From Hydra vulgaris (Eukaryota; Cnidaria; Hydrozoa; Anthoathecata; Hydridae), in contig NC_088927.1 in assembly GCF_038396675.1 (NCBI RefSeq), positions 40,962,001-41,026,000 of the forward strand: 64,000 nucleotides of DNA, given 5' to 3'. The notes beneath the pieces were generated by a model. It was not told the DNA's origin. It did not search any database and saw nothing but the letters and a program-made list of their open reading frames with translations. Of this stretch, positions 7,881-63,066 are shown one piece after another. The first letter of the stretch is position 1. Every line of letters starts with the position of its first letter. A program made the translations under genes and the position numbers.

Positions 7881-7882
7881 AT

Positions 7883-8788: not shown

Positions 8789-8889
8789 CTTCGGTTTTGG
8801 TTGAGTATTTTTTTTTTCTTTTACAAGCTTTATACAACTATACAAAAAAGATTTGAAATGATAATAGTATTTTGGTTGACTGTATAACT

Positions 8890-9690
8890 AAATAAGTAGA
8901 TGAAATTTAATATAGAAAAATGTTCATCTCTACACCTAGACAACTAAAACAAACTTTATGTCTATAATTTGTACAATCAATTGAAACAAATAAAGCCTAA
9001 TATCAAATCTACTAACTCAGAAAATGATCTAGGAATACATATTTGTAATAATTTACTATTCTCCGAATTACCTCAATGCAAGTTAATAAAGCATTACGAA
9101 TAATAAGTCTAATAAAAAGATCCTTCTTTTACCTAAACTCATTTTCTTTATTCTATTAGACTAGACTGTTCTCAGCACTAGTTTGACCAAAGTACTGAGG
9201 ATCTATATATAACCCTTATCGACTGCGGATCTGTATATAACTCTCGTCGACGGCGGATTTGTATATACTCCTCATCGACTTATAAACAAACAATATTCTG
9301 ATAATATACTCAGAAGAGAATCTTAATTAACGTTAGTTAGTTAACTAAATTAACGTTAGTTCATGGATTACATAACTTTTTATATCACTAAAGGTTTTTA
9401 AAACTAGTATTACAACCATGAAATACTGACTAATCAAAAGAGATTTAATAAACGTCTGTAAATGGCTAAACAACTGCTATAAATGCCTAATATTCCTTCC
9501 GAAAACCGTTATCAATTCTATTACAAAAGGAAATACATTACCATTTAGCATATCGTCAAAACTTTTTCACATTGCGAGTAATAAACAAATGGAACTCTTT
9601 CCCAGCTGACGTCGTAAATAAATCCCTGAATTATTTTAAAAACAAACTAGACAGTTTCTTAAAGAAGGAAGTAATAATTATTTCGTGTAT
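8890..9690 (+). pseudogene. LINE reverse transcriptase 3' fragment (CR1/Jockey-like), badly decayed
   Basis: Plus-strand scraps match the thumb and C-terminal part of CR1/Jockey-type reverse transcriptases: FNIEKCSSLHLDN near 8902, a NDLGIHICNN block near 9020, SFFYL...LFSALV near 9122-9190, and finally HFFTLRVINKWNSLPADVVN in shifted frames at about 9560-9630, with a basic or phenylalanine-rich end. Stops and shifts are numerous and a 28-bp tandem repeat has expanded inside it. Only the 3' end is present, as expected of a 5'-truncated LINE insertion. Confidence 0.6.
9199..9282. repeat. 28-bp tandem repeat, 3 copies
   Basis: Three adjacent 28-base units starting ggat(c/t)t(a/g)tatata and ending tcgac plus three to four bases. 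They lie inside the LINE fragment and have presumably expanded in place. Confidence 0.85.
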
Positions 9691-10412
9691 TTAATTGTAT
9701 ATTAATCATAAATTTTATCATTGATGATTAAATATACGAAAACATACCAAATGATTATGTATTTGTATGACAGGTTGAAAGAAAATTTATGCTTATACAT
9801 GTTAAGATTTCGTTAAAAATTTATTATGAAAGCAAAAACTTTTAGACAATCATGAGATCTTGTTACCGAAAGTCGCAATAGTTAAGTTTTTTGCATAATG
9901 TATACATGAATCAAATTTTTAAAGTACCAAACTAAATGATTGAGGTTTTTAAAATGCTGAACCCTGTGAATAATCTGCATAGGGTATTAAATAATTCTTG
10001 TCGCCTAATGAAAATCTTTGGTATTAAATCTCTTTTTATTTAAAAGCCAAAGAATCAATGGATTTTATTATCTATTAATATTGAAATCTGTTCCTGATTG
10101 GGGTGTGTGATAAAGAAGTGAACATAATTATTAATCAATCAACTATTAGATTTATACCCGTTTGACAATTATGTACACTTTTAAAAAGCTTATCACCTAC
10201 CTACCAACCCTCCAACATTTTACCTTGTTTTGGATTTCAGCTGCTATGATTTAAAGTTTTGTACTATGATCAGTTAAAAGAAATTGCTTTTATATGCTAA
10301 AGTGCTTAACTATTTTTAATTGACACCACAGACTCAAGTAGTTTCTCTGACATTACTGCAGTATGCCTCATTTTTTTAACTTTATTGATGACGACAGATA
10401 CAGCAGAACAAA
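9691..10412. other. Gene-free AT-rich stretch
   Basis: No coding motif or RNA gene seen. It could include LINE 3' UTR in its first part. Confidence 0.45.
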
Positions 10413-10521
10413 CCCAGTGGGCACAGGACGTAAAAAAGACGTCTTTTAAACGTCTTTTGAACGTTTTGGACGTTTTTTAAACGTTCAAAAGACGTCTTAT
10501 TTAGGTCCTGTGCCCACTGGG
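10413..10521. mobile_element. Small palindromic MITE, 109 bp
   Basis: Terminal inverted repeats of about 35 bases: the left end begins cccagtgggcacaggacg and the right end is its complement. The interior repeats the word aaacgtctttt/gaacgtt in both orientations. It is too short to code. No target duplication is clear, so the superfamily is not assigned. Confidence 0.75.
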
Positions 10522-12206
10522 AAGTTTTTCAAAACTAAAATTAATCAAAACATGTTTAAAAAGCATGTCACAACATCGCCTTTGTTCTTTGACCTCTATA
10601 TTAATTGAAAAAGCACTATCTTTTCAACATGGTTTAGATAAAATGGTTGAACGATTTGCAAAGGAAAAGGGGAGAAAAAAATTTTTAACTATGTGTAATA
10701 GAAATTAAAAATACATATAAGTTTTAAATAAATTTTATTTTAAATAAATTGTTTTTTAGTGAATTTAAATCGCAGAGCTTATATATAAATCGAAAAGTAA
10801 AAAAAAGTTATTTTGTACAGATTAGAAAAATGTAAACATATACGAAAACATTAATCAGATGACTGAGCACATAGTTTTTTCCAAAGTTGACCAAAGCTGA
10901 ATGATATTTTGAATCAGAGTTGTTAACTCAACTTTTATTGTATTTTCCTAATGGATTATTAACATCAAGATTGTGAACTAACCATTTTGGTATTTTCAAA
11001 TTGTATATTCGGAACATATGAAGCTTTTTTAATCCATATTGTATATAACCTCTATAATTTAAAAACAATTGTTTTGTTATCTTTTTTACTTTTTTTAACT
11101 AACTTCGCCAAAAATGAATAATATTTAACCAGAAAGTTTACACCTTCTTTCATGCCTATGTTGCATATACAGCCAGTGCCTGCTTTAAACCTAGGACCTT
11201 CAGTTATGAAGCCAGAACTTTATCCAATACACAACGGCTGCTTATTTAATAACTATTTGAGTTCCTTGCATAAATCGAAGCTCTAAAATTCGTGTTTTCT
11301 TATCTCTTTTTTATAAACACTTAAAATGAATTTTTCCATAAATTCTGAATATTATTTGTACTCTGAACAAAGGAGAACATTAGTTTACATTTGCAATTAA
11401 GTTTGCATTAATTTGCATTAAGTTGCAGGAAGTCGTCCACAATATTGTTTAGTTTCTTTCTTTCATTTTGAGCTTTTTTTTCCTCTTCCAATACTAAAAT
11501 AAACAGCTGATTTCCATAAATACTTTAGTTTTTAAAAAACTGTTTTTTCATAAACAGAAACAAAGTTACATATTAGAGTTAATTACCAAAACCAAAGTAA
11601 TTAAACCAAAATTAAGTTTAGCACTGAATGAGTTTCATTTTTTTTTAATGTTTCTATTTTTAAAACAAAAAGACTATATTTTTCACTTTTCTTTTCTAAA
11701 TTTGAAAAAATACATTTTACCTTAAAAATTGACACAATCTACCAGGGAAAAAAATAAGGTGGCAAAATATAGTCTCTAAAAATGAAACTGTCTAATAAGC
11801 ATACGTAATTTTTTTTCTTTTAGTTACTTGCTTTCAAACTAAACGCTTGACCAACATCTTTTATAAATTCTCACTTAAAACCTACTCTAATAGCTTTTTC
11901 ATTTCTCACAGTTAACGACATAATGTGTTTCAAACAGTGATTAGGCTTTTACTTAAGTATAAAACCTGGACTAAATTTGGTTATACTAAATCTATAATTT
12001 AATATTTTAAATCTTATAAAACTCGTTCCCTATGTCTAGCAGCGTCATTTTCACGTCCCAAGTTATTTATATATAACTTATTAAATGATTTATATATGAT
12101 TTAGTTGCTTTTAATTTTCTTTTTTTTTTTTCCAAAATTGGAAACCTTAAAGTTGAATTATTTTATTGTTGTTCTTTTTATGACGTTTCAGAGGTAGTTT
12201 TTATTT
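10522..12206. other. Gene-free AT-rich stretch
   Basis: I looked for coding motifs on both strands and saw none. The segment is A/T with homopolymer runs. Confidence 0.5.
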
Positions 12207-13204
12207 AGGGCTGTTGATGGGTCTGGTCTAGGTCTGGTTTCAAGCGACCCTAACCCAGACCCAATTTGTATATACTGGTTTGGGTTTGGATCGGATATCA
12301 ACGGACTTACTTGAACTCATTACAACAACCTTACTTGAACTCATACTCAATTTAGTTTACAGCGTGTTTTGGCATGATCAGAACGGGTCTCAACCCAAAC
12401 CTGGCCCAGAAAAATGCCAAAACAATGACAAATATAGTGTGTAGCCTACTGGGTGCGAGGTATTGAGTGCGTGTGTAATCATTGCAACAAACAATTAAGG
12501 TTTAAATTAAGTAGTTTTTCTTAGCTTTTAATGATAAAAATTAAAATTAAATTTAAAATTTTTTTTAAAATTTAAAGAAATTTTAAATATTTCGAAACTA
12601 AAACAGTTAGTCATTAAGAAATACAATACAGGACTGAATATTCGATAGATTAATTATCTGGGTGCATCACAAATAATCTAACCGGACCGCGTGTCTTCCT
12701 CATAAAATGCTCTAATTTTGTTTTTTTAAAAAAAGCAAAAAAAAAATTTTTCTTGGTTATTTAAGTGCTCCAAGAAAAACTCAGAGGTCATAAAACACCG
12801 CGGAAGAACGCTTATTTAGGAGTTTCACGCCATTTTTCTTAATAATGTTTCGAGTATTTTCAGGTCAGGAATCGAAACTCCGACTTCTTGATTTTAAGGG
12901 TCAAACCATTGAAAGCATCCTGTGTTTTTATTGACATATATACTTAATTATTAATAAGATTAAAAAAATTGCGCATTTCAAAAGTTCTGAACAGCATTAC
13001 TTAAATATATTGTTGTTCGGGTTTGAATTTTATACGGCTAACCTAAGAAATATTATAGGGTTATTATATTATCCGGCCCATTTCGTTAACGGACCGGGTA
13101 TGAATCTATAATAGCATATAAAATATTATAACGAGACCCAGACCTGGTTCAAACGGGTTGAGTCAGGTCTTTCCTGAGTCTACACTTGACCCATTAACAG
13201 CCCT
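12207..13204. mobile_element. hAT-like non-autonomous element with SINE inside
   Basis: The ends are inverted repeats: agggctgttgatgggtc at 12207-12223 and its complement with one change at 13188-13204. Subterminal blocks at both ends are rich in gggtct/agaccc words (12224-12300, 12390-12415, 13130-13190), a pattern common in hAT termini. A clean 8-bp target duplication is not visible. There is no transposase coding, and a minus-strand SINE copy sits at 12755-12921. Confidence 0.6.
12755..12921 (-). repeat. tRNA-derived SINE, diverged copy
   Basis: It shares the body blocks of the better copies at 18630, 38356 and 45221: ggtgctcca-gaa, accgcggaaga, gttcacgcc, ggaatcgaaac for box B, and a degraded box A region near 12900. 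It is inserted in the hAT-like element, so that element is older. Confidence 0.6.
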
Positions 13205-13489
13205 ATTTTGATTTAATAACATTTTTTATTAGTTTTTTTGACATTAACGACGTTAGTATATTTTATTAAAACCTACCTATATTCATAAAGATTTTTATTC
13301 GCAATTGTTACGAATATCAATAAATAATTTGCATTTATTTATTTAACTAATTAAACGTGTTTAATAGTCAAAAAACTTAAAAAATCATTTATAAAACATA
13401 ATTGAATATATTTATTACTTATTTCATAATTAAATATATTTATGACTTATTTCATAAGTTTTCTACTGTTCGCAAGCTACAGTTTTTAA

Positions 13490-13523
13490 AGTCTTCGTTT
13501 CGAATACATTCGAAACGAAGACT
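13490..13523. repeat. 16-bp perfect hairpin, 2-nt loop
   Basis: Arms agtcttcgtttcgaat and its reverse complement are separated by two bases. It lies 15 bp from the larger palindrome that follows. Confidence 0.85.
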
Positions 13524-13537
13524 TGTTGTAAAATGTT

Positions 13538-13749
13538 AACTTCAGAATTGCTTCATTTAAACTTTTATTTTTCGAAATAATAATAAAAAATAAAACTTAA
13601 AAGTTATATGTAACTTTTAAGTTTTATTTTTTAACTAATAAATAAAATAATAATAAAAAATAAAACTTAAAAGTTACATGTAACTTTTAAGTTTTATTTT
13701 TTATTATTATTTCGAAAAATAAAGGTTTAAATGAAGCAATCCTGAAGTT
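13538..13749. repeat. 212-bp palindrome with two nested palindromes
   Basis: The outer arms (13538-13605 and 13682-13749) begin aacttcaggattgcttcat with few mismatches. Each half also contains its own 40-bp palindrome, aaacttaaaagtta(t/c)atgtaacttttaagttt. It can fold as one long stem or as two short hairpins. It is probably a fold-back element or MITE; there is no coding. Confidence 0.85.
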
Positions 13750-14165
13750 AAAATTTAATTATAAACGTTTTGATATATAAAGATTTTTGAATTCATTTTT
13801 ACAATTCTAGCCATTACGGCAACAAATAAGACAAAAACGTAGTTTAGCGTAAAACGTAGCGAAATGAAGTTTAGCGAACGTTTCCTAGATGTTACTTCCG
13901 AATAAGGGTTTTTAAAAATTCAACTTGTGAAAGCCTAAATTTCGAAAGTATTACTTGCGAAAGGTAATTCTGTAATTTTAAATACTGTTTTATATTTGTT
14001 ACGTAAAAAACTAATTTATGATTGTAAATAATCTTTAAAAAGTATTAGATTTTTCCGGAAATGTTCGAAATCTTTCGATTAACAACCCTAGTAATAACTA
14101 TTATTTATAAATTTTATTTTATACTCAAGTGGTTAAACTTATAAATAGTTTTGAAAATAATAATA
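13750..14165. other. Gene-free AT-rich stretch
   Basis: No feature recognised between the palindrome and the LINE. Confidence 0.45.
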
Positions 14166-14169
14166 AACT

Positions 14170-15460
14170 TCAAAGACAGCTTCAGTTTATGATGCATTCA
14201 ACAAAAAAACAACAACATTTTATCCATGGATAGCACCTGGAATTATAAAGTCGTCAACAAAAAAAAGCAATGACTATATAATAAGTTTCTCATAAAAAAA
14301 ATTTCACTTATGAAACTAATTACAAAAATTATAAACATGTTCTTGAGATAGTTATTAAAAAGTCAAAGAAATATTACTATACCGAGCATTTAATAAAACA
14401 TAAAAATGATCCAAAAAAATACTTGGAACATAATTAAGGAAGTAATTTGCACGGAACAAACTGACAGAAATAGTCTTCCTTTAAATCTAAACATTGAAAA
14501 TAAAACTAAAACAAATAAATCTATGTTTGCTGAAACACTTGATCAATATTTTGTCAGTGTAGGTTCCACTTAAGCGTCGAAAATAGAAACTACTGAAGTA
14601 AATTTTGAGTCATACCTTACTTCTAATAAGACCTCTAAGATGGATAATTATAAAATTACTGAAAAGGAACTCTTAGATGCAGTATATCTTTTAAAACTAA
14701 ACAAAAGTATGATAATATTAGTTGGGGTATGATAATATTAGTAGTAATGTAATTAAAATTTGATAAAATACTTAACAATCCCTGTATTACATATTTTTAA
14801 TTTATCTTTAAAACTAGGTATTTATCTGTAAAAATTTAAAATTGCGTGGGTCATAGCTATTTTCAAATCAGGAGACATTTCTAATCCTGAAAATTACAGA
14901 CAAATTTCAATTCTTCCTTGCTTCTCAAAAATCTTAGAGCGAATTATGTATAATTGAATTTTAACTTTTCTAAATATAAATAAATTTATATAACAAACAT
15001 TTTGGATTTCAGCCAGGGTATTCAACTGACTATGCCATTATTAATATTGTTCGCAATATATTTAAAGCATTTGACGAAAGTAAGTTTACGCTCAGAGTTT
15101 TTATAGATCTTAGCAAAGCCTTTGATACAGTAGACCATAGCATTCTTATAAAAAAACTTGTAAGTTATGGAAGTAAAAGCACATATTTAAAATGGCTTAA
15201 AAGTTATCTAAACAATAGAAAACAATATATAGCACACGAAAAAGGAAAAACTGATTACTTGACTATAACTTACGGTGTTCCCCAAGACTTAATTCTGGGT
15301 CCACTTTTATTTTTTATTTATGTAAAGAATTTCCATAAGTTTTCAAACATTTTAAACTCAGTTTTATTTGCAGATGGCACGAATTTATTTTATTCTAATG
15401 GAGTTGTCAACCTTTTATTTAAAATGTAAACAAGGAATTTTTAAATCTAGCGGATATACA
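14170..15460 (+). pseudogene. LINE reverse transcriptase pseudogene (CR1/Jockey-like)
   Basis: Motifs appear in the right order over about 1.3 kb: a linker YKNYKHVLEIVIKKSKKYYY (about 14310-14380), QYFVSVGST near 14550, the FKSGDISNPENYRQISILPC block of RT motif 1 near 14860, FIDLSKAFDTVDHSIL near 15100-15140, YGVPQDLILGPLLFFIYV at about 15270-15325 (normally PQGSILGPLLF) and LFADGTNLF near 15368 (normally Y/FADDTN). The second catalytic Asp is replaced by Gly, and there are several stops and frameshifts. Endonuclease and 3' tail are missing or unreadable. It was once an RNA-directed DNA polymerase for target-primed insertion and is now inactive. Confidence 0.85.
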
Positions 15461-15734
15461 ACGCATATACATTGAAACAATGAAAAGATATTGAGAGGTC
15501 AGCAAAAAAACCAAACTGTAAGTGTATTTGAATGTATTTATTAAAATAATAAATGGGTTAATCTATTCGCATGCACGTGCGAGTAGACTAACCTAATATA
15601 GTTTACTCACACACAAGTGCGAATAGACTGTATTTTTTTATAGTCTATTTGCACCTTAGAAAAAAACTTAGACATATTAGTTTATAATGAAAATTTACAA
15701 AAAAAATTAGTAGAGTAAAAAACACAGTATAATC

Positions 15735-16584
15735 TTGATTTGTCTACCAGAGCATTCTTCACATAATCTACAACCATGCGATAGAGGTGTCTATGGTCAT
15801 GTCAAACAAGCATGGAAAGAAAATCTTACAAAGTATTTCAAAGGCTCAAAATGTAAGAATTTAGATAAACAAAATTTTCCACCGTTGCTCAAACTGCCTT
15901 ACGAAAGTGGTAAATGTTTTATACGCTTGCATGCAATCGCTGGTTTCCAGTACACTGTCTTATTTCCACTTAATAAAAACAACATAAATCATATGGCATT
16001 AGTTATCACACAAATGTTTAATCTACCTTCATCAACTTTAGCAATCCCGGCAGCACATACACTATTTTGCTCAGACACAGCTTCATCATCCTTAACAGCC
16101 ACAGCAGCACCTAGTCCAACTACACACCGATTACCATCTTTCTCAACTACACCAGCTTTAAGTTTTGATAGGTATCAAGCATGTGTTGAGCGTTGCAAAA
16201 ACAGTATCGAGAGAGAGAGTTGAAGCAGTTTTTTCAAGCAAGAAATCAATTGCATGTTAAAAAATTGAAGCAGTGTCAAAACTTGGCGGAAAGTGTAATA
16301 TTGAAAAATATGTAATCGAGTTTCTAAAACAAAAAGATGAAGAAAAAGCAACAAAGGGAGCCGTGAAAGTTGCTAAACTTAACGCAAAGCGTAAACTCTC
16401 TATGCCAAGTACTCAAATGCCTGAGCATAACAATGCTAAGCAACCTCAGCAAAACATTAATGAAGAACAAGTACTAGCAGCAAAACGATTAAAAGTTGCA
16501 AAATCTAAAAAGTGTAGAGTACATAAATGTTGCAATGCGAAAATTCAATGTGTCGGGAACGGTTGTGCAAAGAAACATGTTTAA
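15735..16584 (+). pseudogene. pogo/Tigger-type DDE transposase, 5'-truncated
   Basis: The frame at 15735-16223 begins at the motif ICLPEHSSHNLQPCDRGVYG, the block after the second catalytic Asp of pogo-like (DDE_1) transposases, and continues through KQAWKENLTKYF to a GFQYTVLFPLNKNNIN block (normally GFRKTGIYPFNPN). After a stop at 16223, a second frame (16273-16584) is a Lys/Ala-rich tail with a Cys/His cluster (CRVHKCC...C..CAKKH) that may be zinc-binding. The helix-turn-helix, CENP-B domain and the first two catalytic Asp residues are absent, so this is a dead 3' part. Its family once cut and pasted DNA at TA sites. Confidence 0.8.
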
Positions 16585-16887
16585 CAAAGAAAAATGTAGT
16601 TGGAACTAATTTTTTTTGTTGCAAAAAATGTAAAAACTTTAATATAGTTTCATAAATATAAGTTGTGTTAAAAAAAATTATTAAAAAAAAGTTAAAATTA
16701 AAAAAATTTCAATGTTTTCTTAAGTGTTTGGTTTTATCAGAATGTCGACTAAAACCGCACAATTTTTTTTTCTTTACATTTAATATTTTCGATAATTTTT
16801 TTTTTTTAACATTGTCATTATCTTATGTAGTTTTTTATCTAATAAAAAAAATGAAAAAAAAATAAAAATGTTATTTAATTTTTATTA

Positions 16888-36185: not shown

Positions 36186-36430
36186 GCAGTAGCGGTGTAG
36201 TGGTAGAGCACTCGCCTCATAATCGAGAAATTCGAAGTTCGATCACCACCACGTCCTTGGTAGTACCGCGCTTAACTTGTTTCTCCACGCAGCGGCCTTG
36301 TTCGTCATAGTTTGTGTTTTGAAGTTATAGAGTTGAGAGAGGGTTGTAACAACAACTAAAATAGCCTCGGTCTTGGGGAGTTAAATCAACACACACGCAC
36401 ACAGACACACACACACACATACACACAAAA
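36186..36430 (+). repeat. SINE with tRNA-Met-like head and CA-repeat tail
   Basis: The head contains a box A-like tagtggtagagca, an anticodon-arm-like ctcgcctcataatcgag whose 7-base loop would carry CAT, and a box B-like gaagttcgatcacc. The body follows (cgcgcttaacttgtttctcc, cacgcagcggcc, tcggtcttggggagtta) and the copy ends in a (CA)n run at 36390-36428. The acceptor and T arms do not fold cleanly, so this is a tRNA-derived SINE and not a working tRNA gene. It is a different family from the copies at 18630, 38356 and 45221. Confidence 0.75.
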
Positions 36431-37375
36431 GGCTAGACACGAATTAATAAATTCTCTTCTTTTGTTTTTGCTGCAAAAAAATCACAATACTTTCCTTACT
36501 AATTATCTGCGTACAATCAAGTAATAATTACTTTTAATAAAAAAAAACACAGTAAATTTGCTCGTAAGATGTCTATTTTAAAACTATTTTATATGAAATC
36601 ATCAACACATGTCTGATTTTAGTATATTTATCCAGTGGGTGACCTAAAAAAAATGCTTTTTCTTAAAAATATGTTTCTTATCATACTGTACTATAAAGAT
36701 ATAAGTTTCAACTAGGATTTGCACCATGAGTTAAATATTGTTAAAAGTAGTAAATTGTCACTTAAAAATGCTGTAAAATAATAATGATTCGCGTGAAAAG
36801 GATAACGTATGTTTTTTTTGAATTTGTTCGTCTGGGTTAACAAAACATGCCTTGACTGTTCAAATTGTCTGTTCAATTACAGATGCTTATTTAACTTGAT
36901 ACGTTAAATATCCGTAAACGCATACGCAGAATATCATTTTTTCTCCTTATTTAACGATCTACTTATTTAACGTGACACCGCCGTTTCGCGCAGAGCACAT
37001 TTTTTTTATATCCTTAATTTTTCCTTCAAACTTTTTCTTTTTTACCTTTTATGGTTTGTTTTATTGCATATTGTAAAATTTTTATTGTAGCGCTAGCAGT
37101 AACGCTAAGCATTATTTTTGTACATGTACAACTAATATTTTATTATTTGTGCATATTACATGCGTACGCATGTATAATTAATGTACGTAATGTTTCATAT
37201 CTTGCTACTGTTTTATTAATTGATGTAGTCATTTTTTTTAGTTTTTAGAGATTTTTGGATGTTTCATATAATTAAAAAGTTTTTTGATTTAATAATTTTT
37301 CAGATTCTCAAACATTTTCCAAGACTGTTTAGAAAACAAAATATATGAGTGAAAGGATTCTAATGCTGCTGTCAA
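36431..37375. other. Gene-free AT-rich stretch
   Basis: One hydrophobic frame at 37051-37248 (65 codons) has no motif and is not supported as a gene. Confidence 0.45.
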
Positions 37376-37379
37376 AATG

Positions 37380-38353
37380 CATTGCGATTTAAAATGAAGT
37401 CATTGTAAGAATGAGTTGTTGTTTGTTTATCAAGCTGGTTGGCATTAAAAACTTCTAAATAAATATGGCAATGAAATGGTGTTTTTAGGTGCAACTTATA
37501 AGACCACTAGATATTCATTGCCATTGTTTTTCTTAGTTGTTAAAACCAATGTCGATTTTTAAATAGTTGCAACATTTGTATCTGAAAGTGAAATTTTTGA
37601 TACAATAAAAAGAGCACTTAATGTCAGCAAATCTTGAAATCTTGATTTCAACACTTACACTGCATAACTGAGTATTGTAATGAGGAGATACATTCTTTAG
37701 AATCTGTTTTTATTGGTGTGTTTTTTTAATCTGTATTTATTTATTTAATTTTTAAGTTATTAGCTTCTTTAAAGGAATCACTTTTTATATTTTATGCTTA
37801 AGTTATAATATAATTATTTTAAATAAAATTGTGTTCTCTTATTAGGGTGTGAAGTATTCATCTGCGATTTTCATAGATAACAGGCATATGATTGTTAGAT
37901 AAAAAAGACTTCCAATGGTTGTTTTAGTAAAAAGAAAGATATTTTAAAATTGTTGAGATGTATAGCTAGGTCAAGATCTTGTGAAGAAGAAGTAGAAGTC
38001 TTTACAGCGTTAGAGCTTGTTGACTTTTAGCGTCAAGAAGGTTTTTCTAAATTAAAACATTATGTTGAAATGTATTGGATGCCTATAAAAAAGGCATTTA
38101 TTAATAAATATGAGTTTAAATAATTGAACCTTTATTTGAGAATATATTTTGCGGCAACCACTTGGTTTGGTTTGCATTATTTTAAGGTGAGTTATGTAAA
38201 AGTAGAATTTCTTTCTTATAATTTAGAGATGGATTTGGTGGTATAGACAAAATCGCCTTCTAATTAATTGCAACACAAACAATGGCGTTGAAAAACAAAT
38301 GAGTCATTTAAGTATTCCTATTTAAAGAAATATAACAACTTCTCTTTGACAGG

Positions 38354-38386
<33 letters not shown>

Positions 38387-40520
38387 TGTAGTTATTTTAG
38401 GTGCTCCAGAAGTCCTTACGGTCTTATCACAGAGCACCGCGGGAAAGCATTAAATAAGAAGTTCACGCCTCCTTCCGAACCGAACATGTCGCTTATTTGG
38501 CTATAGATAGCATCGAACCTCGGACCTCTGGGTTCTGAGCCAGAACTCTAACCACTGCGCCACGGCTGCTCAAATGTTAAATTTATTAATCAAATAATTC
38601 TTCACTGATAAGCTGGAAAGGTTAGTTTAAACGAAAAGTTAAGTTGATGAACAGATGTTTAAAGGACTATTGTCAATTTAAAATTGCTTACAGTAATGAT
38701 GTTAATATAATCTCATTTATAGTGTTTTATCTACTCAATTTAGCTACACTGATGCCAACTTCAAAATGGATGCAAAATACAAGAGATATGGTTGTTGGGT
38801 GTCAAAATATCTATGTGATTGCCCTGGAAGTTTTGTTAAGCATTTCTTGTTGCAAAAGTCTACTGCTGAATACATGGATTTGAACACAGTTGTAATGATT
38901 AAATCTTTACTGTATCTAGTATCATTGATTCTTCTACAAATTACTTTGCGCACTTTGGTGATGAAAATATTATGCCAAAATGTACTTGTTATAATTGTAT
39001 ATCAACAGGCTATCCAATCATAATAGACTATCCCTGCAAATATTTTTTCCTGCTTGGTCATGGAATACGTTATTAAAACTTTATGTAAATTCTACATTCT
39101 TAAATTTAAATGCAGATAACTATGACATAATGCATGAAAAAATTAGTTTTTGACTTTTCAAAGTCACCTTTGAAAGAGTCATCTTTGTTTTTAAAGGAAG
39201 ATACAACTGTAAAAGATCTGAATGACATATGTAAAAAATATATTTCGATTTATTCTAGTGTCGATGTAAGAAAGATGCTTCATATTATTATAAACTCATC
39301 ATTTGAATTTGAGGCAAACTCTGATAAAATTGTGATGTTACACAAAACTCTTTCTATTGTAATAAAAAAACTAAACAAAGCAACAGAAAGACAATCTGGA
39401 ATCTTGCCACTCAAACAAATAATAAATCCAGCAAAAAATACATTTCTATTCCTGTACGGAAACCAATGAAAGTTCAAATTAATTGTGTTGGATCACAAAA
39501 AGAAAAAACATTAAATGCTTCTAAAGTACTTATAACAGAAGAGAGTTACTTAAACCAAGAAGGGTTTGTTGTTGACCAGGAGATAGTAACTTCACATAAC
39601 AACAGAACATAATAACAGAAAAACTGGTTTTTCTTCCTAAGACAAGACTCTCCTCAGATGATATAAACAAAATTACAACCCATCGGATATTGTCAGACAA
39701 TGTCATCCACTCAGTCCAAAAAATTATAACTGGTGTTTCTGGTCAGCAGGATCCAGTTTTAAAGCAAAATTTTTCATTTTGTGTGGTGAAGGACTCTTTT
39801 GTACAAGTATTACATGATGGTAATGTTCACTGGCTGACAAAAAGCACTTTTGGGTGCTCTGAAGGTGAGGTATGTCTGTTAGACAACATGTTTAAAGGCA
39901 AAATAAAGAATTATTGTCAGACAAACTTGTGCAATAATGCAGTGCACCAAAGACAGTTTGAAAGTACAAGTTTTACCTGTGCAACAACAAACATATGGTG
40001 TAAACTGTGGTTTGTTTGCTTTGGCATTTGCACAGCACATTGCTTGTACCGCCTCAAAATAATGCTACGTTTCATTTGAAATTTATGAAATGGGAAACCA
40101 TTAATATAAAAGCGTTATAGAAAACCAATTAAATGAGTTTTAGAAAAGCTGGAAAATTGACTAGGTTTTGCAAAGATAAAGGAATTTAATTTTACTTTTA
40201 TTGCATATTTGGGTATATGGCGATTTGGATGGCTTCTGATAAAGTTGTCAAAGATAAGTAAGTGAAGTAGTATTTAAATTATATTTTAGCTTTTTAATTT
40301 GTTACACACAAACACACACACATATACATTTATTACTATTATTTTATTTCTATTCACATTTTTTTGACGATGTTTTTTTATGGGTTGATACATTTAGGCA
40401 CATGGTGCAATGTGAAAAATGTGAATTTTGGTTTCGCCGTGTTTGTGAACGCATACCTTATTATATTTAAGAATGCGAAAGTGTTGAATGTGGTTTTGTT
40501 TGCAATGTACAATAACTTTA
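37380..40520 (+). pseudogene. Composite Mutator-type transposon gene: transposase - SWIM - Ulp1-like protease - PHD
   Basis: The transposase part reads FVYQAGWH...LLNKYGNEMVFLGATYKTTRYSL (37420-37520; the catalytic DATYKT is GATYKT), YCNEEIHSLESVFIG, then after a likely intron GCEVFICDFHR (37850) and the SNGCFSKKKDILKLLRCIAR block. NTNNGVEKQ is at 38275. After the SINE insertion, MPKCTCYNCISTGYP (38972) is a SWIM-type zinc finger. A linker (39134-39600) contains IPVRKPMKVQINCVGSQKEK. The region 39630-40080 is a C48/Ulp1-like cysteine protease with VLHDGNVHWLTKSTFGCSEG (His), LLDNMF (Asp) and, one frame over, TYGVNCGLFALAFAQHIA (Cys). A likely intron (about 40259-40397, gtaagt...ttag) precedes HMVQCEKCEFWFRRVCERIP, a PHD-finger half. 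Frameshifts, stops and the lost Asp show that it is dead. Such transposons would cut DNA; the protease part may act on SUMO-like modifiers, which is inference. Confidence 0.75.
38356..38573 (-). repeat. tRNA-derived SINE, best-preserved copy
   Basis: Read on the minus strand: ttgagcagccgtggcgcagt gives box A, followed by gtggttagagttctgg, an anticodon-arm-like ctcagaa loop, box B aggttcgatgc, a conserved body (ggaaggaggcgtgaacttc, ccgcggtgctctgtgataag, accgtaaggacttctgg, gagcacctaaaataa) and a 30-base A tail (T run 38356-38385). It has inserted into the composite Mutator-type pseudogene. The intact boxes and long tail suggest a fairly recent insertion. Confidence 0.92.
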
Positions 40521-40524
40521 CCAC

Positions 40525-42960
40525 GTAGAACTTTAATTTAAAAAAGGTTTTGACTTAAATATTTATAATCCTTTTTTATATAGTTTTAGTAGTTTAAATT
40601 TTTTTTTTTTTTAATGGTAAGCAAAAAATTGATGGTAGATAAAAAATCTTATGCAAATAGTTTTCTAATTTTCTTAATCTAAATTCTTAAAAGAATACAT
40701 GATTTTTGAATGATAGCAATGCCTAAAAAGTTGTGTTACCTAAATTAGATTTATTTTAGTCAAGAGTTCCTTAACTAAGATGACCTGGTTAGGTAAACGT
40801 AATGCGTATTTAAGAACAAGATCTATTTTTTCAAAATTGTTTCAAATCAATGTTTTCAATCTTGCAAGCATTGCTGTTGTCTTTCAAATCATTTATTTTT
40901 AGCTTTAAGGACTTTGAGTTACAGTCTAAGTATAAATCTTAGCATTTATAATAAGTATTTATTTTTGTTTAAATTTCAATGATTATGTATATTTTTTTAA
41001 TTTAACTATAATAATGTTCCTTTTTTTTAATAGCGTTTGTCATTACTTTATTAGTTTGCCTACTGTTGAAACATGCTCGATATAGTTAAGGCAATTTAAC
41101 TTATTATAGCGTCGGTATCATATTTTTTTGACAATGACATATTTCCGTTAAATAATCAGGTCTGCGAATTATAAAAAGACGAATAAAATTAAAATGATAA
41201 ATTTTGCGGTATCATAAAATATAAATGTTAAAAGAGAAAAAATCCAGACCGAAGATTCTTTTTTTTTTTTTTAAATCGTCTTAAAATCACGATTGCTTGT
41301 CCAAATTTGAATAAGATTTTAAATAAATACGTTTTTTAGGTAAAATGAGCATTATAGTTTAATAATATGTTCTGCTCTGATCGGTTATTGGCAATTTTTC
41401 TTAACTATAACTTCTTTCTTGGTCGGACTTATAGTATTTTTTGTGAAAATTGATAGAAATATTGACAACTATATGTAACTAATATACGTCCAAACCGATT
41501 AGAACTAGGATCTATAGTAAATTAAGGCACTTTTTCAAAAGATTTTAACTAAATTCATGTTAAAAGCTCTTGTTTAGACATAATACGCAGATAAAACCAA
41601 TGTAATACCAAAAAAAAGAATTTGAATAATTTTGTAAATTGCCTTAACTACACCGAGTGGTTTTAAATTTAGTAAATTTATATAATGTGAAATTTACTCT
41701 ATTAATCATCAGTTAACAGTTAGGGAGAAATTGGAATTCTACATAATTGAGATAAAAATGATTTTGTTTACTGGTATTACTATTAGTTACCAGTGCACAG
41801 TGGGACAGAGTAAGCCAAAATACCAAAAAATTAATGTCGACATTGCACGGTGAAAATTTGTCATAATGGTGAAGATATGTTCATTAGAGGAAATATCTAT
41901 TTAAAAAACATTAGATAATAATTTAAGCGTTATTTTATGCGGTTATTTGACATGTGTTCCGAAACCCTATTTTGCATTTTTTATCAACTTTCTTACGCTA
42001 CTTTTGTTTTAAATTAACTTTATTGACTTTCATTATAAAATATATTATTTTTATTAACAATGTTTTTTTCGCTAAAACTTTTAAAAACAATTTAACGTCA
42101 ATGTTATCATTAGTTTTTATGCATCGAAAACAGACAGTTTTCAATATTTTTTTTGCTACTAACCTTCACTATTAGGTATCTGATAAACTATCCTCCAATA
42201 TCCTTCAAACATTTGATTATGTAAATCTCATGCTAAATGTATGTAAATAGCCATGCATCATAAATATTTTGCAACTTTTTGCAATAAAAAAAGTTATAAC
42301 AAAAGATTGGTCTTCGGTTAATGATCAGTTGATGAGAAATACTGAACATGTAAAAAAGATGTTTTGCACACAAGAATATCTACAAAATCTTTCCTTACTG
42401 TTATAATATATAAATTCTGTAAATATAAATCTAAAAAAGTTATTTTATCACAAATACATGCATTGAAAAGTAATATTTTTGATGTTTACGTTTATGTCTT
42501 TTTAGCACTTATGATATTTCGTAATATCCCAAATAATTATGACCATGTAAAAAATATTTAAGGAGTTACTTTTAACTGATGATATAATTTTTAAACCGAT
42601 TTTTTGTTTTAGTACATCATAATGCAAGGGTTAATGGTTATCGAACTGTTTTCAATTTAAAAGTTAAACAACCTTTATCAAATTAAAAGAAGCATTTCAT
42701 GAAAATTGTCTCATCCATTCAGGTTCTCCCGTAAATAGGTTACACAAAAAGATTTATTTTTTCAGTTTCAAAAAAAATGCAAACAACTTTACCAACTATT
42801 GGCCACATTTTTATAAGAAACACCCATTGCAGAAATTAACTGCAGAACATATATACTTCAGTTATTTTTAATATAAATTTTAGATAATTAAAAGCTCTTT
42901 CAATTTAAGTATTATTGTAATTATCGTAACATCAAGTTATATATAATGCAGATAATAAAG
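40525..42960. other. Gene-free AT-rich stretch
   Basis: I saw no coding family in frames such as 41954-42175 and 42364-42561, which are Phe/Ile/Lys-rich readings of A/T sequence. Confidence 0.5.
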
Positions 42961-43060
42961 ATTTTCCCAAATACTGGCTTTTCCCAAACACTGGATTTTC
43001 CCAAATACTGGATTTTCCCAAATACTGACTTTTCCCAAATACTGGATTTTCCCAAATACA
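42961..43060. repeat. 17-bp tandem repeat, 6 copies
   Basis: Six head-to-tail units of (a/c)ttttcccaaatactgg, differing at one or two positions each. Confidence 0.95.
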
Positions 43061-43189
43061 GCTTAAATCTTATATCAAATACTCACAAATGTCTTATTGG
43101 CCAATAATCCGTAAATGGGAAACACATCGAACAGAATAATAGAGCACTGGAAATTTTTTTAAATAAAACAAAACTAAAAAAATTAATCA

Positions 43190-44940
43190 TAATTTTTCAA
43201 TTTAACTCATTATATGTTACGTACTGATAATAAACCTTGAAAAAAAGTTTAAAAAAACTTATTGCTAAATAACACCATTTTCGTTTTTCAATATCTTTGT
43301 TCTTAGTTGATTTTTGCATTTTTAATATCTTAACTAAGTTCTTTTTATCACAGCTTTCCTTTTTTTCTTTTAAAATCATGTTTTTCAATTTTTCTCTTTC
43401 CGCAAGCTACTTTTGTAGCTGTCTTCAAGCTTCGTGCTGTAAGCCTCTAATGTGTTAAAAAAAATACTTTAAATTAGAGTATTTGAGTTAATTTTCTTTT
43501 GTTTAATTTGTGGTGAAGGATAATTGAAAACATTGAAGTCTTTGTCTTATAGACTAGATGAATCATTAAATGGAAATGAAAACTTGAATTCTATTGATGT
43601 GTTGTGAGAAGTTAATTTGGATCTGGGTATTGCAAATATTCACTAATTTGATTCAAAAAAATACTTGCAATTTGAACACCTTGAAGCATCAATGAACTAT
43701 CAAAAAAAACTTTTTTAACAAATGTTGATTTTTTAACTTCTACTTTTTCAAAACTTACATCTGTAATAATATCCACAGCATTGTGGATATATTGTCTTAA
43801 ATATATATATATATATTGTCACAATATTGTCTTAAATCGAAAAACCAATTGATTCATTTTTCATTTCAGGTTAAGTTCTTGTTTGTTGTGATCTGATAGA
43901 TCAGGCAATGATAAAAAATTAGTTATTAATTGTGCATTAAATACATTTTTAACCTGCGCAATATCTGAATATATGATGCAGGATATTGGAATACATTTGA
44001 AATAGTATCTGGATTGAGAAAATACGTTCCACAAGCATAAAATTCTGAGTATAAATTTGGATCACTCATGTTACAGTTTTGAAAATAAACCAACTAACTT
44101 AGAATGTGAAACTATATCCCCTGGGTAATTATTCATCCTTGTTTGACAGACATCAGAATACACATTTTTTAGTGTTGACCCAAGGCAGCAACCAGTTGTT
44201 GGAGTGAACTGGAAGTTTTATAATTTCAACTTGATCAAAATAGTCAGTTTAATAATTTCAATAAAACTGCGAGAGTTGTGTTCTTCTAGTCTATGGCCTT
44301 GCAAAACTAATATTTGAAAAAAATATTTTTTCAAACAATAACTTAGCAAAACATTGTTTAGTCGAGCCCTTTTTAGAAACACTCCATGTTGCTCCATTTG
44401 GAGGATTTTCTGTATCAAAACCATTAAGGGTGCGTATAGTTTTTCCTATCACTATTAAGAAGTGGTGTGACCGGCTCCATTTATGCAAGCTATATTAGTA
44501 ATGGTCTCTTTGTTGCCACTTGTTTGAATCTGAATGTATTTTGATACTTTTCCTTGCAACAACACGTTTTACTTTATGATCTAGTTGTATCCCTGTTTCA
44601 TCCATGTTCCAAATACATTTTTGTTTGTTAAATAAGTACTTATTTTGCATTAGTTTTAAAACTTAATCTGTTTTGTTTTTTGCCATTTTAGCAGCATAAT
44701 CAATAAATGTTATTTTCAAAAACCGATTCCCATTTGGGCGTGATTGCCAGCATAATATTTTTTTCAAGACCTTTAATTTTCACTTGTTATGCTCCTACTT
44801 TAGATTTCGAACAGATCATGGCATAGCAGATCAGCCTGCATAGCCGAACGTGGAACTTTGTTATACTTACTTTTTGCTGAGACATACCTGTTAAAATTAC
44901 AAGTATTAACAGTTTCGTATTAGAATTTATCTTCAGGATG
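43190..44940 (-). pseudogene. pogo/Tigger-type DDE transposase, decayed
   Basis: On the minus strand, YNKVPRSAMQADLL (about 44830-44870) resembles the N-terminal psq-type helix-turn-helix. NKQKCIWNMDETGIQLDHKV (about 44590-44640) holds the first catalytic Asp, followed by KRVVARKSIKIH. Next come HHFLIVIGKTIRTLNGFDTE and PPNGATWSVSKKGSTKQ (44300-44470), then FEKIFFSNISFARP, after which the frame is lost. A damaged TTGCCLG block (normally TSHWLQPCD, about 44170) and a Lys-rich tail KNMILKEKKESCDKKNLVKI (43320-43390) complete it. All parts are broken by stops or shifts. It is independent of the relic at 15735, in the other orientation and with a different protein region preserved. Confidence 0.72.
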
Positions 44941-45220
44941 CATTTTGATGTTAATTGCCGTATTTGTCAATATTTATTGTCAATATCTAAATTGGCCTTC
45001 AAATTACTGAAAACTGTGAAATTATGTATAAAAAGATTTGATATAAATATTTGCATTATTTTACAATTTTTCTTGATTTAAAGACGTTATTGATTAATGA
45101 AAGGCAAAAGGTAAGGAAAATTTTTTTGCTAAATTTGAACTATTTAAAAATAAAGTTAGCAATAAAAATAAAAAAATAATGATTTTGAGGTCATAAACTC
45201 CACCACTATGTTTAAATAAA

Positions 45221-48650: not shown

Positions 48651-51474
48651 GGTGGCTACCCACTATTAAAATCTGAAAAAATAAAAAAAAAAGTGAAATT
48701 TTTATCTTATTTGTGGAAGGTTTAACCTTCATAAACAATAAATAACGTACAACAATGGTATAAAAGTTTTATAACTTACCCTAATTTTGTTTTTTAAAAA
48801 GTGGCAAACTTCTAAAATTTTAAAAAATTCCATAGCAACTGCCTTAGCGACAGTTGAAACCTTTTTCCTCAATAACTATTGAACAGTTTTTAACACAAAT
48901 TTTACTGCATCTTAACTAGGTTGTTATCTAGGCTGTTAATTTAATTCCGAGCTAAATGCTATTTGCCAAAAGTACTAAAATCATACCACATATTTGTCTT
49001 AGTAATTTTTGTTTTTAAAAATATCTTGTAGAGTTCACCAGTGTTATTAAGAATTTATGTTGATAATATTATTATAATATGGGATCTAAAAACAGATATA
49101 AGAAGGTAAGAGCAAAAAAAAGACGTTTTTACGAAAGAAAATCTGTTGAGATTGACATAACTTCAGATGAAACACCAACAGTTGCATTAAATAAAGTAAC
49201 TGTAAGTCCTGTTATCGACAGTTTACATGCATCAACTTCCTTTAACAAAATTGATTTATCTTTTTTAAAAGTAACAAATAACATCCAAAAGGAAGCTAGT
49301 AATGATGATTGTAACTTGATTGTTAATTCAGACTTGCTAATTAATTTACTTAGTTTGATTGGTCGGTGCCCAAACTGCACAGCTGCAATCAAAGTTTTTC
49401 ACGACATGGAAAATAAAAAAGGACTTGCTCACAGTTTTCTTCTCTCTTGCAATGAATGTGATTGGAGTATAAACTTTTTAACTTCTAAACCAATTATAGA
49501 GGATCATGGAAAAAATGGTCGAAAATCTTATGGAGTAAACTACAGATTAATAATGGCTTTTCGTGAGATAGGTTGTAGTTTTACTGCAATGAAAAGATTT
49601 TGGTCTATTATGAATATGCCACCACCCATGAATTTAAAACCATTTGAGACTGCAAACAAGAACTTGCATGATTCATATGTTGATGTAGCAGAGAAATCAA
49701 TGAGAAATGCTGCATTTGAAATCAGACAAAATGTACTCAATGATAACTACCATGAAGATACAGTTGTCAATGTATCTGCAAGTACAGATGGATCATGGTA
49801 ACGTCGTGAATATACATCTTTAAATGGTTTAGTCACCCAAATATCTACTGGAAAGCGTGTTGACATTGAAGTTCTTTCAAAAATCTGTAGATCTTGCAGT
49901 TTATGGGAAATGAAACGAGGGTCAGCTGACTACAATTTTTGGAAATTTGGACACAACTGCAAAATCAACCATGTGGGCAGCTCTGGTGCAATGGAAGTAG
50001 AAGGTGCAATAAAGAACTTTGGTCGTTCAGTAAATAATCGAAAACTTTGATACACTACCTACATTGGTGATGGAGATACCAAGTCATACCAAAGTGTTGT
50101 TACATCAAATCCTTATCCATCCTTTAAAATCCAGGTTTTGAAATTAGAAAAGCAGAATGTGTAGAGCATGTGCAAAAGCGGTGCACGGCGAAGAACTTTG
50201 CAAATAAACTATTGTGGTAAACTGTTAACAGATGGTAAACCTTTGGCAGGTAAAGGACGCCTTACCGACAAATTAATTAATAGACTACATAATTATTATG
50301 GCTTAGCAATACGCCAAATTAGAGATAATCTTTACAAAATGAAAAAAGCAATTGGTGCTATCATTTTTCATTGCTGTGAAAATGATGACTCAAACAAACG
50401 TCATGAACTTTGTCCAAAAGGAGCCAAATCTTGGTGCAAATATAACTCAGACCTAGCTACAGGCAAAAACAATTATAAGTCTAACATAACTATTCCTCAA
50501 GCAGTTGCAAATATCCTTAAACCAATCTTTTCATATCAGGATCTTGCAAACGAAAAGCTCCTGGAAAAATGATTGCATGGTAAAACACAAAATGCAAATA
50601 AATCTCTGAATGGTATGATATGGACCAAATGTTCAAAAAGAGTTCCTACAGGAAAAGATTCATTAGAGATGGCTGCAGCATCTGCTGTTATTTGCTTTAA
50701 TGAAGGTTCCCAGGGACTACTCCCTGTATTTTTAAAGATCGGTATTGTACCTGGAAAGTATACTTTAAAAGGACTGCAAAATATTGATGTTAAAGCGTAA
50801 GAGAGATGAACAAAAAGTCAGCAGAGCCAGCCAAAAAACGAAGAAGAAAGCTAAGATCAATTAAAAAAAGTTACAGTGATAAAACAAATGAAAATGAGGA
50901 TGAATTTTATGCCTCTGGTTCTTTTACTTAAACTGTATGCTATTTTTTGACGTAATTTTATTTGTTTTTGTGTTTTTCTCCATTTAAAAATTTTCTATCT
51001 TCTAACAAAGATATCTTTAGTATGGTTTAATATTTTTCTTTGAAATTTTTTACAGATATAAAATGTAGTTAGGTGAATGTGGTGAGTTAAAAATATTTAC
51101 ACTATGGTATCCGATTCAAATAAAAATTTGGGTAACTTGGGCTATTTTGGTATTTAATTTAAGCATTACACTAAATTGCAAATTCCAGAGCATTAAAAAA
51201 AATATATAATTTTTTTTTTGACTCAGCACATAGTGCATACAATAAACAATGTTTTTGAAAAGTTTGACTTAATTTGAAAAATTTGGCAGTTAGTTATCCT
51301 TGTTGAAAAATATGATTTTTTAAGTTAATTATGCACATAATTAATGACGTAATGTTGAAAATATGAAAAATTTGTATTTTTTTATCTGTTTTGATTCCAA
51401 TGCTACTAAAATGTTTAAGTATGAGGTAAAAAAGCGATTCTATCAGTATTTTTTTTAAATAGTGGGTAGCCACC
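48651..51474 (+). mobile_element. Nearly full-length TTAA-flanked DNA transposon (Kolobok- or Mutator-type)
   Basis: The ends 48651-48667 and 51458-51474 are perfect 17-bp inverted repeats (ggtggctacccactatt), each flanked by TTAA (48647-48650 and 51475-51478). A TTAA target duplication is typical of Kolobok and piggyBac elements, while classical Mutator elements make 8-11-bp duplications. Inside lies one long transposase pseudogene (49079-50930). At 2.8 kb, with both ends present, the element is complete in outline but disabled by stops. Confidence 0.88.
49079..50930 (+). pseudogene. Mutator-like-domain transposase (PF20700 type), inactivated
   Basis: The ATG at 49079 starts a basic N-terminus (MGSKNRYKKVRAKKRRFYER). 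A CPNC...CNECDW zinc-binding block follows at about residues 98-136, then RLIMAFREIGCSFTAMKRFW. STDGSW at 49785 is followed by a stop. RREYTSLNGLVTQISTGKRV and LSKICRSC lead to HVGSSGAMEVEGAIKNFGRS and a second stop, then YIGDGDTKSY (50060). A one-base shift then gives AECVEHVQKRCTAK. GRLTDKLINRLHNYYGLAIR and CPKGAKSWCKYN (50410-50440) follow, then a stop after NEKLLEK, and HGKTQNANKSLNGMIWTKCS up to ICFNEGSQGLLPVFLKIGIV. Asp residues in DGSW and GDGDTK are the likely catalytic ones. Three stops plus one frameshift give few lesions for the length, so inactivation is fairly recent. Confidence 0.85.
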
Positions 51475-61079: not shown

Positions 61080-62234
61080 TTATTTAGAATCAGAAAAATA
61101 ATTTCTTAAAAATCTACAGAGTAATAACTTTTTAAACTCTAGACGAAATGTTCGACTTACGTATGCGTAAAGAAACGGATTAACTGTAGAATTTGGATAT
61201 GTTAAAAAGTTACAAATGTCGAATAATACTTTGTAATAACATTTTGGGCACATGCCAACCAAAAGCCACTGTGCATTAAGAGGTAACCCAGTAATTACAA
61301 AAGCTGATATTATGCTTGCAATCATACGCAAAGCTTTTTTATGTCTAAGTATTCTCTTTCGTTTCTTTATTAAATCTAGATTTTTTTGCATATCGGCGGC
61401 ATTATATGGCATTTTATCGGACAATGGAAATAACTGTGTCCATTTAGTCGTTTCTGCAGAAAATTTATTTTCTTCATTTAGAGCATGGTAAAATTTAGGT
61501 ACTTCATAGAGTTGTTGCCTTACAATAAAATACATTTTCCAGTATGTTATAATTACAATACCGAGCGGTAAAAAGTATCCTATTACTGAAGTTGTAATAA
61601 AAGCGTATCTTTTAAAGTCAAAATCGTGACCTTTAGAAAACTGCTTGTAGCATTGTTTATTATCTAAGTTTTCTTTTCTCACTATATGCTTGTAAATGTT
61701 AATATATGGTACCCATATTATCACAGCTATTAACCACACTGTGAATAATTTAATAATGACTTTTGATGTTTTTTGGTGTAATCGATGTTTCATTGGAGAT
61801 TTTATTGAAAGATACCGATCAAAATTAATTAAAACAATATGATTTATTGAAGACTGGATTGAAACGTAGTCTAAAACAAGTGCCACATTGCAAAATTCTT
61901 TTCCAAGAGGCCAGAACCCCAAAGACATTTCCATAATGTTCATGGTTACAGGAAAAAATCCAATAAACATATCTGTAAATGCCAATGAAAGTATTGGAAC
62001 ATTTGATAAGCTTCTAATTTTTTTGTTTCTAAAATAAGCCAAAATAATCAAAAGATTTCCAGCTATTGTTATAATGCTAAGAAATGCGCCACCGATCATT
62101 GCAGGTAGAAAAAATGACAATGCTTTAACGGGTGGCAATGAACTGTCAGAACTAGGTGTAGTACTATTAAAGTATGAAGTTGGTATAGCATTATCAAAGA
62201 CATTGTTTGGCAACGTGTGCAATGAAGGTCTCAT
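61080..62234 (-). CDS. Class A G-protein-coupled receptor, muscarinic/amine-like (GPCR-2)
   Basis: An intact single-exon receptor of 384 residues, clearly paralogous to GPCR-1. Landmarks: a Ser/Thr-rich N-terminus with NST at 23-25, GN at 59-60, LAFTD with D88 (2.50), C115 and C195 for the outer disulphide, D122-Y123 (3.32-3.33), DRY 139-141, P223 (5.50), a third inner loop (about 242-298) unlike that of GPCR-1, P318 (6.50), N320 (6.52) and NPFLY 352-356. The toggle Trp6.48 is Gly316. The block KRILRHKKALRMIASII before TM6 is nearly the same in both receptors and probably contacts the G protein. By the binding residues, a small amine or acetylcholine-like ligand is likely; this is inference. 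The chosen ATG follows a good splice-acceptor-like site by 16 bases. Confidence 0.93.
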   Translation of the reverse strand: MRPSLHTLPNNVFDNAIPTSYFNSTTPSSDSSLPPVKALSFFLPAMIGGAFLSIITIAGNLLIILAYFRNKKIRSLSNVPILSLAFTDMFIGFFPVTMNIMEMSLGFWPLGKEFCNVALVLDYVSIQSSINHIVLINFDRYLSIKSPMKHRLHQKTSKVIIKLFTVWLIAVIIWVPYINIYKHIVRKENLDNKQCYKQFSKGHDFDFKRYAFITTSVIGYFLPLGIVIITYWKMYFIVRQQLYEVPKFYHALNEENKFSAETTKWTQLFPLSDKMPYNAADMQKNLDLIKKRKRILRHKKALRMIASIISAFVITGLPLNAQWLLVGMCPKCYYKVLFDICNFLTYPNSTVNPFLYAYVSRTFRLEFKKLLLCRFLRNYFSDSK

Positions 62235-62250
62235 TGTTGGATCAAGTTAT

Positions 62251-62569: not shown

Positions 62570-63066
62570 CTATCTAATATTAAAGCTACTATTTATATCC
62601 ACCTGGCAATCATTACTCTCTGTTGTTTCTAAAATAACACTATTAATATAAATTTCGTTACTATTAGCAGCAACATTATTGTTATCACTTATATCCGAAT
62701 GGAAATCGATGTGATGGTGACTGCCTGTTTCTGAAACTTTTTTAATGAGTCTCTTTTTATGTGTTTGTGGCGATATAGAACTAAACTTTCTTTTGACTTT
62801 TGGTTTTGAATCAATAATAATAGATGGCACAGAAAAAGGTTTTAATTTAGGCTTGTTATTAAAATTGGATATACTGTAATCTGAAGGTAAAAAGTGATCA
62901 CTACATATCCGGCTGTGCTCAGTAGGAATAAATGTTTCACGTTTTATAGCAACAATTCACTTTTTACAGAGTTTGCTATTATTAATTGGAAATTTAAGAA
63001 ATGCTCTGATGTCGTTTTTCATTGCTCTATTTGTGCAACCAAAAGTTTTGCTGCAGCACAAGAATT
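62570..63066 (-). pseudogene. THAP-domain protein, N-terminal fragment with one stop
   Basis: On the minus strand, CCSKTFGCTNRAMKNDIRAF leads to LKFPINNSKLCKK, a stop where the conserved Trp should be, then IVAIKRETFIPTEHSRICSD and HFLPSDYSIS, then LKPFSVPSI. This is the C2CH zinc-binding THAP pattern (C-C ... W ... C-x2-H, ...VP). The open tail (62570-62830) is basic then Asn/Ser-rich with no domain. THAP domains bind DNA in cellular regulators and in P-element- and Kolobok-type transposases; which of these this was cannot be told. The Trp-to-stop change suggests it is dead. Confidence 0.7.

Follow-up and report, generated by a model that had tools for sequence, protein, structure and literature searches.

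A dead Mutator-like transposon copy in Hydra vulgaris and the Ulp1 protease-PHD tail of its family's transposase

Transposons of the Mutator superfamily move by cut and paste. Among the titles and opening lines of abstracts on Ulp1 and PHD domains in MuDR transposases, no closer description of the family studied here was found than that of Bao, Kapitonov and Jurka (2010; PMC2836005), whose passages on Mutator report Ulp1 encoded in hydra Mutator transposons, citing Repbase Reports 8:2075, and whose Figure 1 legend announces a Ulp1 and PHD alignment for Ginger1 and Mutator transposases. The general kind, a Hydra Mutator element with Ulp1, is thus already reported in the Mutator passages of that paper, and the MuDR described there shares superfamily and host genus with our family, a likeness judged by description only. 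The word 'SWIM' is absent from the paper, and its parts on Mutator do not hold the intron structure, the 17.4-kb size, the collinearity counts or the selection on the protease, which come from the present analysis.

Other described elements share parts of this architecture. The Ginger1 transposons of Hydra (Ginger1-9_HM) likewise carry C-terminal Ulp1 and PHD domains fused to the transposase, according to the Ginger1 passages of PMC2836005. Their transposase, however, resembles a Gypsy integrase and is associated with 4-bp duplications of the CCGG type, whereas our family has a MULE transposase and 9-bp duplications; membership in Ginger1 was rejected on the length of these duplications and because no integrase domain occurs among the Pfam matches of the transposase. 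In plants, the Kaonashi/KIU elements of the VANDAL-type MULEs are also Mutator-like with an Ulp1 domain, and the passages on them in a 2026 review (PMC13317346) link the VANC/KIU gene that encodes it to hypomethylation. There, however, the Ulp1 domain lies in a separate gene (VANC/KIU) of elements that are non-TIR, whereas in our family, whose elements have terminal inverted repeats, it forms part of the transposase frame. Rehavkus elements have a PHD finger in the transposase and a 9-bp duplication in common with our family. They are described from arthropods and annelids and with a minisatellite before the 3' terminal repeat, and the table of Dupeyron et al. (2019; PMC6446971) gives neither SWIM nor Ulp1 for them. 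The passages of that survey on accessory domains report SWIM in many groups and, for the cnidarian MuDR-6_HM, an ovarian-tumour domain, and the words 'protease' and 'hydra' are absent from its text.

The locus studied here is a decayed transposase gene of a Mutator-like element at positions 37296-40541, on the + strand, of a 64,000-nucleotide stretch of Hydra vulgaris DNA (the window; GC 25-34% in 2-kb steps). An earlier note on this DNA had described transposase, SWIM, protease and PHD blocks in this order on one strand; all of them are seen in the window, on the + strand, and are confirmed by alignment to our reference copy, L012 (C1:13147001-13157000; Table 1). DNA identity to L012 is 90% over window 37232-38359 and 81% over 38574-41075, with shorter matching pieces farther out, and amounts to 87-93% in the five exons. 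The two introns proposed in the note are in fact four in the L012 model, and seven of the eight splice dinucleotides survive in the window, donor 2 (after exon C) reading GC instead of GT. The domain identification of the window copy rests on its relatives. Its own fragments all score below the Pfam cutoffs (PHD 16.5, C48 15.1, RNaseH-like 14.8 and MULE 12.8 bits), and a Pfam scan of its SWIM fragment and of the His/Asp half of its protease gave no match.

The window copy is dead and cannot encode a transposase protein. The blocks named in the earlier note are spread over three frames, and frameshifting indels occur in four of the five exons (B, C', D and E). The GATYKTTRY block highlighted there is present, although as a mutated form of DATYKTTRY in which the first catalytic Asp has become Gly (37488-37490), leaving two of the three catalytic acidic residues. 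In the protease remnant, the codons for His (39828), Asp (39882), Gln (39988) and Cys (40006) are kept, with His and Asp in one frame and Cys in another. The CxH half of the SWIM finger reads CKY by eye at 39035-39043, where the alignment is ambiguous, and the PHD finger has lost two ligands, the His, now Arg, and one Cys of the first pair in exon D. The insertion in exon C' opens with a poly-T run on the + strand (38356-38385) and looks, by eye, like a tRNA-derived SINE on the reverse strand; neither ARAGORN nor Rfam found a tRNA within it. With the Asp lost, the frameshifts, the exon insertion and the damaged zinc ligands, no open frame is left at this locus. The search for terminal repeats at this copy gave just poor matches with at least 5 errors, both ends being lost or unrecognisable, and the tandem array in its downstream remnant comprises 5.9 copies. 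As a single locus, the window copy is an ordinary fossil.

Table 1. Features of the transposon remnant in the window
Feature	Position	Strand	Basis and state
Whole recognisable element remnant	37083..44946	+	blastn against full-length copy (element 6711-16817 of 17386 bp, gapped)
Exon B, first half of MULE/RNaseH-like domain	37296..37715	+	alignment to L012; 1-bp deletion
Exon C, CDFHR block	37846..38093	+	alignment to L012; second catalytic Asp kept (37866-37868)
Exon C', NNGVE block	38227..38620	+	alignment to L012; catalytic Glu kept (38290-38292); 1-bp deletion and insertion
Insertion in exon C', 219 bp	~38360..38573	- (limits and strand approximate)	gap in L012 alignment
Exon D: SWIM finger, linker, Ulp1-type protease, first PHD Cys pair	38744..40257	+	alignment to L012; several frameshifting indels
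SWIM finger remnant	38981..39043	+	alignment to L012; first two Cys kept, CxH half damaged
Ulp1/C48 protease remnant	39663..40162	+	matches L012 6827-7327
Exon E, second PHD part	40398..40541	+	alignment to L012; His ligand to Arg (40435-40437), 2-bp insertion
Downstream element part (element 14676-16817)	42611..44946	+	69-79% identical; broken by 17-bp tandem array 42960-43059

Elsewhere in the window, a tRNA-like stretch was seen by eye at 36186-36260 (+), perhaps another SINE, in which ARAGORN found no tRNA. Pieces of a different family of Mutator-like transposases (PF20700, E values of 7.8e-22 and 2.4e-9) lie at 49067-49798 and 50165-50569, a DDE_1 transposase piece at 15714-16220 (+), and a THAP domain piece at 62573-62956 (-). 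Open frames of rhodopsin-like receptors (PF00001), perhaps paralogues, are found at 5408-6781 and 61083-62246, both on the - strand.

The gene is better preserved in relatives such as L012. In L012, five exons (4619-5039, 5169-5416, 5550-5725, 5854-7416 and 7573-7714) separated by four GT-AG introns of 128-156 bp join into one frame of 849 residues with no internal stop, upstream of which a further N-terminal part exists. The L012 model was tried on ten other copies (L009, L010, L011, L013-L018 and L028). The joined frame is free of internal stops in 5 of the 11 copies (L011, L012, L013, L017 and L018) and has 1 to 35 stops in the remainder (L009, L010, L014, L015, L016 and L028); all eight splice dinucleotides are present in 8 of the 11, L012 included, with L009, L010 and L028 deviating at one or two. 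With DNA identity down to about 73.5%, L017 and L018 still keep 8/8 splice dinucleotides and a frame that is open across the 838 residues compared, its end codon lying past them.

In the intact copies the domain order is MULE/RNaseH, SWIM, Ulp1-type (C48) protease and PHD. Pfam matches on the spliced L012 product exceed the cutoff for the ZSWIM1-3 RNaseH-like domain (5.8e-10), MULE (1.3e-7; 32.4 bits, cutoff 27.6), Peptidase_C48 (6.3e-6; 26.6 bits, cutoff 20.7) and SWIM (2e-4; 21.3 bits, cutoff 19.6). PHD (2e-4; 21.7 bits) falls under its cutoff of 24, as it does in every scan made, and in other subfamilies SWIM (L023 and L026) and C48 (L023) are below cutoff as well. L012 holds the three acidic residues that we take to be catalytic in a MULE transposase. 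All eight C4-H-C3 ligands of the PHD finger are present in L012 and in six of the ten other copies (L011, L013, L014, L016, L017 and L018), and the whole PHD finger lies in one exon in L020 and L036, the latter with an Arg at the usual His position.

At the N-terminus of the L023 transposase (2591-3289), a match to ALS2CR8 (PF15299, 5.4e-13), the human CARF gene, adjoins the ZSWIM1-3-type RNaseH domain; it is above the cutoff in L023 and weak at the N-terminus of L012. The ALS2CR8/ZSWIM match suggests that these host proteins and such transposases share descent, and no publication linking ALS2CR8 with such transposases was found in the parts of the literature covered.

A protease profile built from four loci was searched in 24 loci. 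Rows spanning the protease domain were obtained for 19 of them, and His, Asp, Gln and Cys, which we take to be the catalytic tetrad, are kept in 18 (L010-L023, L025, L026, L028 and L036), a set that includes many near-identical copies and the four loci from which the profile was built. The nineteenth, L006, is frame-shifted; as for the remaining five loci, the domain is divided among frames in L009 and L027 and has decayed in L024 and L037, and L007 has no match. Matches of the protease to solved structures are weak, with E values of 0.003 and 0.005 to OtDUB and to a ULP_PROTEASE-domain protein.

The protease dN/dS (Nei-Gojobori) is 0.13 for L012-L018, 0.16 for L023-L025, 0.19 for L020-L021 and 0.29 for L022-L023, the four usable pairs, whose dS does not exceed about 1.1. 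L012-L020 and L012-L026 (protease dN/dS of 0.07 and 0.20) were left out because dS is above 2 or infinite in several parts. In L012-L018 the corresponding values are 0.19 for the SWIM part, 0.05 for RNaseH and 0.25 for the linker, and in L023-L025 they are 0.10, 0.05 and 0.45. The linker between SWIM and protease diverges faster, with dN/dS of 0.25-0.54 over the five pairs computed. Constraint on the protease is thus similar to that on the SWIM part and stronger than that on the linker, as read from dS values that range from 0.25 to 2.2 (six pair-and-part sets and four protease pairs) and are partly saturated. Transposase and protease distances, compared for the four of ten loci that passed a motif filter, gave a Pearson correlation of 0.86, a Spearman correlation of -0.09 and a Mantel p of 0.16, and were given no weight.

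A full-length copy of 17386 bp at C1:13144435-13161820 ends in 42-bp terminal inverted repeats (40/42 identical) and is flanked on both sides by a perfect 9-bp duplication, ATATTGTTC. A second full-length copy, of 17431 bp on C7, has the same inverted ends as the C1 copy and is flanked by the perfect 9-bp duplication TTTTAGATA. The terminal inverted repeats and the 8-11-bp, usually 9-bp, target duplications expected of a Mutator-like element are present, the duplications being perfect and 9 bp long in both of the copies that were followed to their two termini. The C1 copy contains a reverse-transcriptase fragment (PF00078) in a stretch shared with the C7 copy at 95%, and since this stretch is common to both full-length copies, the element probably moved carrying cargo. 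Further frames lie beyond the 3' side of the transposase within the 17.4-kb element, at L030 179-670 and 1504-1941, with matches to DUF7047 (2.3e-16) and, below threshold, to integrase H2C2; these are perhaps nested retroelement cargo. The tandem arrays in L030, the locus containing the 3' terminus of a full-length copy, are short, with units of 9-18 bp. The L017/L018 subfamily has a shared right end, and no left end matching it was found in the flank covered.

Collinearity of transposase and protease was assessed across a genome of 911.5 Mb in 15 contigs, drawing on 150 listed transposase matches out of 151 and on 150 listed protease matches (from 595 and 496 candidates), which merge into 148 transposase loci and 125 protease loci; some listed places duplicate each other, for example four on C13, and the protease query was the window fragment, the last third of which is in a shifted frame. 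Among the matches listed, a protease match lies 0.5-3.6 kb downstream on the same strand at 61 of the 148 transposase loci, and on the wrong side or strand at none. By rank, a downstream protease accompanies 20 of the 20 best transposase loci, 29 of the 30 best and 38 of the 50 best; an upstream transposase match accompanies 61 of the 125 protease loci among the matches listed and 26 of the 30 best. Since pairing was judged among the matches listed, a missing partner proves little. Five (L033-L037) of the 87 transposase loci partnerless among the matches listed were read: L036 has the complete architecture, with a transposase part about 50% identical to L012, and L037 has a decayed protease. 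No protease was found within the 5 kb read at L033, L034 and L035, one subgroup with transposase and SWIM, in which L033 and L034 have long open exons and L035 is decayed. A protease-free subgroup thus exists, and multiplication therefore does not require the protease in every member. The refuting case set in the earlier note, in which the transposase and protease-PHD parts would lie apart in most other copies, is not what the 30 best-matching loci show. In viral contigs, 78 transposase-pattern and 48 protease-pattern matches yielded no confirmed relative.

The collinearity, the single frame and the low dN/dS together imply that the protease fusion was inherited and selected, and did not arise as a chance junction. 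In many copies the transposase has long included the protease-PHD tail, and the counts, the splice sites and the selection show the protease tail to be functional in the transposase and not a captured passenger. The proposal that protease and PHD finger belonged to the same transposon product is accordingly upheld by the collinear copies, L036 among them, by the one frame running across conserved introns, and by the purifying selection on the protease.

We consider it very probable that this locus represents a Mutator-like transposon copy, now dead, whose transposase is a multidomain RNaseH/DDE-SWIM-Ulp1 protease-PHD protein, with a tail that may act locally on SUMO or ubiquitin. In such a protein, the SWIM finger and the N-terminal region would place the transposase on the element, the tethered protease would strip nearby proteins of SUMO or ubiquitin, be they silencing factors, repair factors or the transposase, and the PHD finger would keep the complex at selected chromatin. 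The element may thereby be aided in excising, inserting or escaping silencing. As for the substrate of the protease, ubiquitin is as plausible as SUMO, and none of the results favours SUMO.

It is possible, if somewhat unlikely, that the protease-PHD tail helps to repair the DNA once the element has excised, by changing ubiquitin or SUMO marks on repair factors, and does not counter silencing; a repair role was proposed for the Ulp1 and OTU domains of transposons in the corresponding passage of Bao et al. (2010; PMC2836005). This role overlaps with the local action on SUMO or ubiquitin preferred above, which includes repair factors among its candidate targets. We find it quite unlikely that the protease processes the transposase or another protein of the element, by self-cleavage or in maturation, and plays no part in SUMO or ubiquitin biology: the protease is under selection and joined in cis to the transposase, and a faster-diverging linker separates it from SWIM, but known C48 enzymes act mostly on SUMO or ubiquitin-like conjugates.

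A chance junction, with a Mutator fragment lying beside an unrelated Ulp1-PHD element such as Ginger1, is scarcely credible, even though the window is rich in decayed elements and the Ginger1 passages of PMC2836005 describe Ulp1 in Hydra Ginger1 as well, with PHD in one family. The same order recurs at 61 of 148 loci among the matches listed, never on the wrong side or strand, a single spliced frame persists in 5 of 11 copies, the duplications are of 9 bp and not 4 bp, and the core of the window copy (37232-41075) matches a single element along its whole length, bar the insertion at 38360-38573. For the family as a whole, the spliced frame and the collinearity counts led us to reject this junction. 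The idea of a host gene domesticated from such a transposon at this locus can practically be dismissed, the match of the transposase core to a Pfam family named after animal ZSWIM1/3 being set against the lost catalytic Asp, the frameshifts in four of five exons, the exon insertion and the damaged zinc ligands.

The multidomain transposase with a protease-PHD tail that may act locally on SUMO or ubiquitin bears on the question of why transposons carry Ulp1. Published work ties SUMO to small-RNA-directed silencing in other organisms, and for Hydra vulgaris AEP, the relevant parts of PMC12220107 count MULE-MuDR among the putatively active, expressed elements, with expression that falls short of the highest levels. 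With the selected tail, this link between SUMO and silencing and the expressed MULE-MuDR elements of AEP, the question becomes testable in a laboratory animal. Tentatively, and as an unlikely case, the transposase may possess a built-in, chromatin-guided deSUMOylase or deubiquitinase that lifts, in cis, the small-RNA- and SUMO-dependent silencing of its own copies. If true, this would be the equivalent, in an animal, of the anti-silencing VANC/KIU genes of plants, though built into the transposase.
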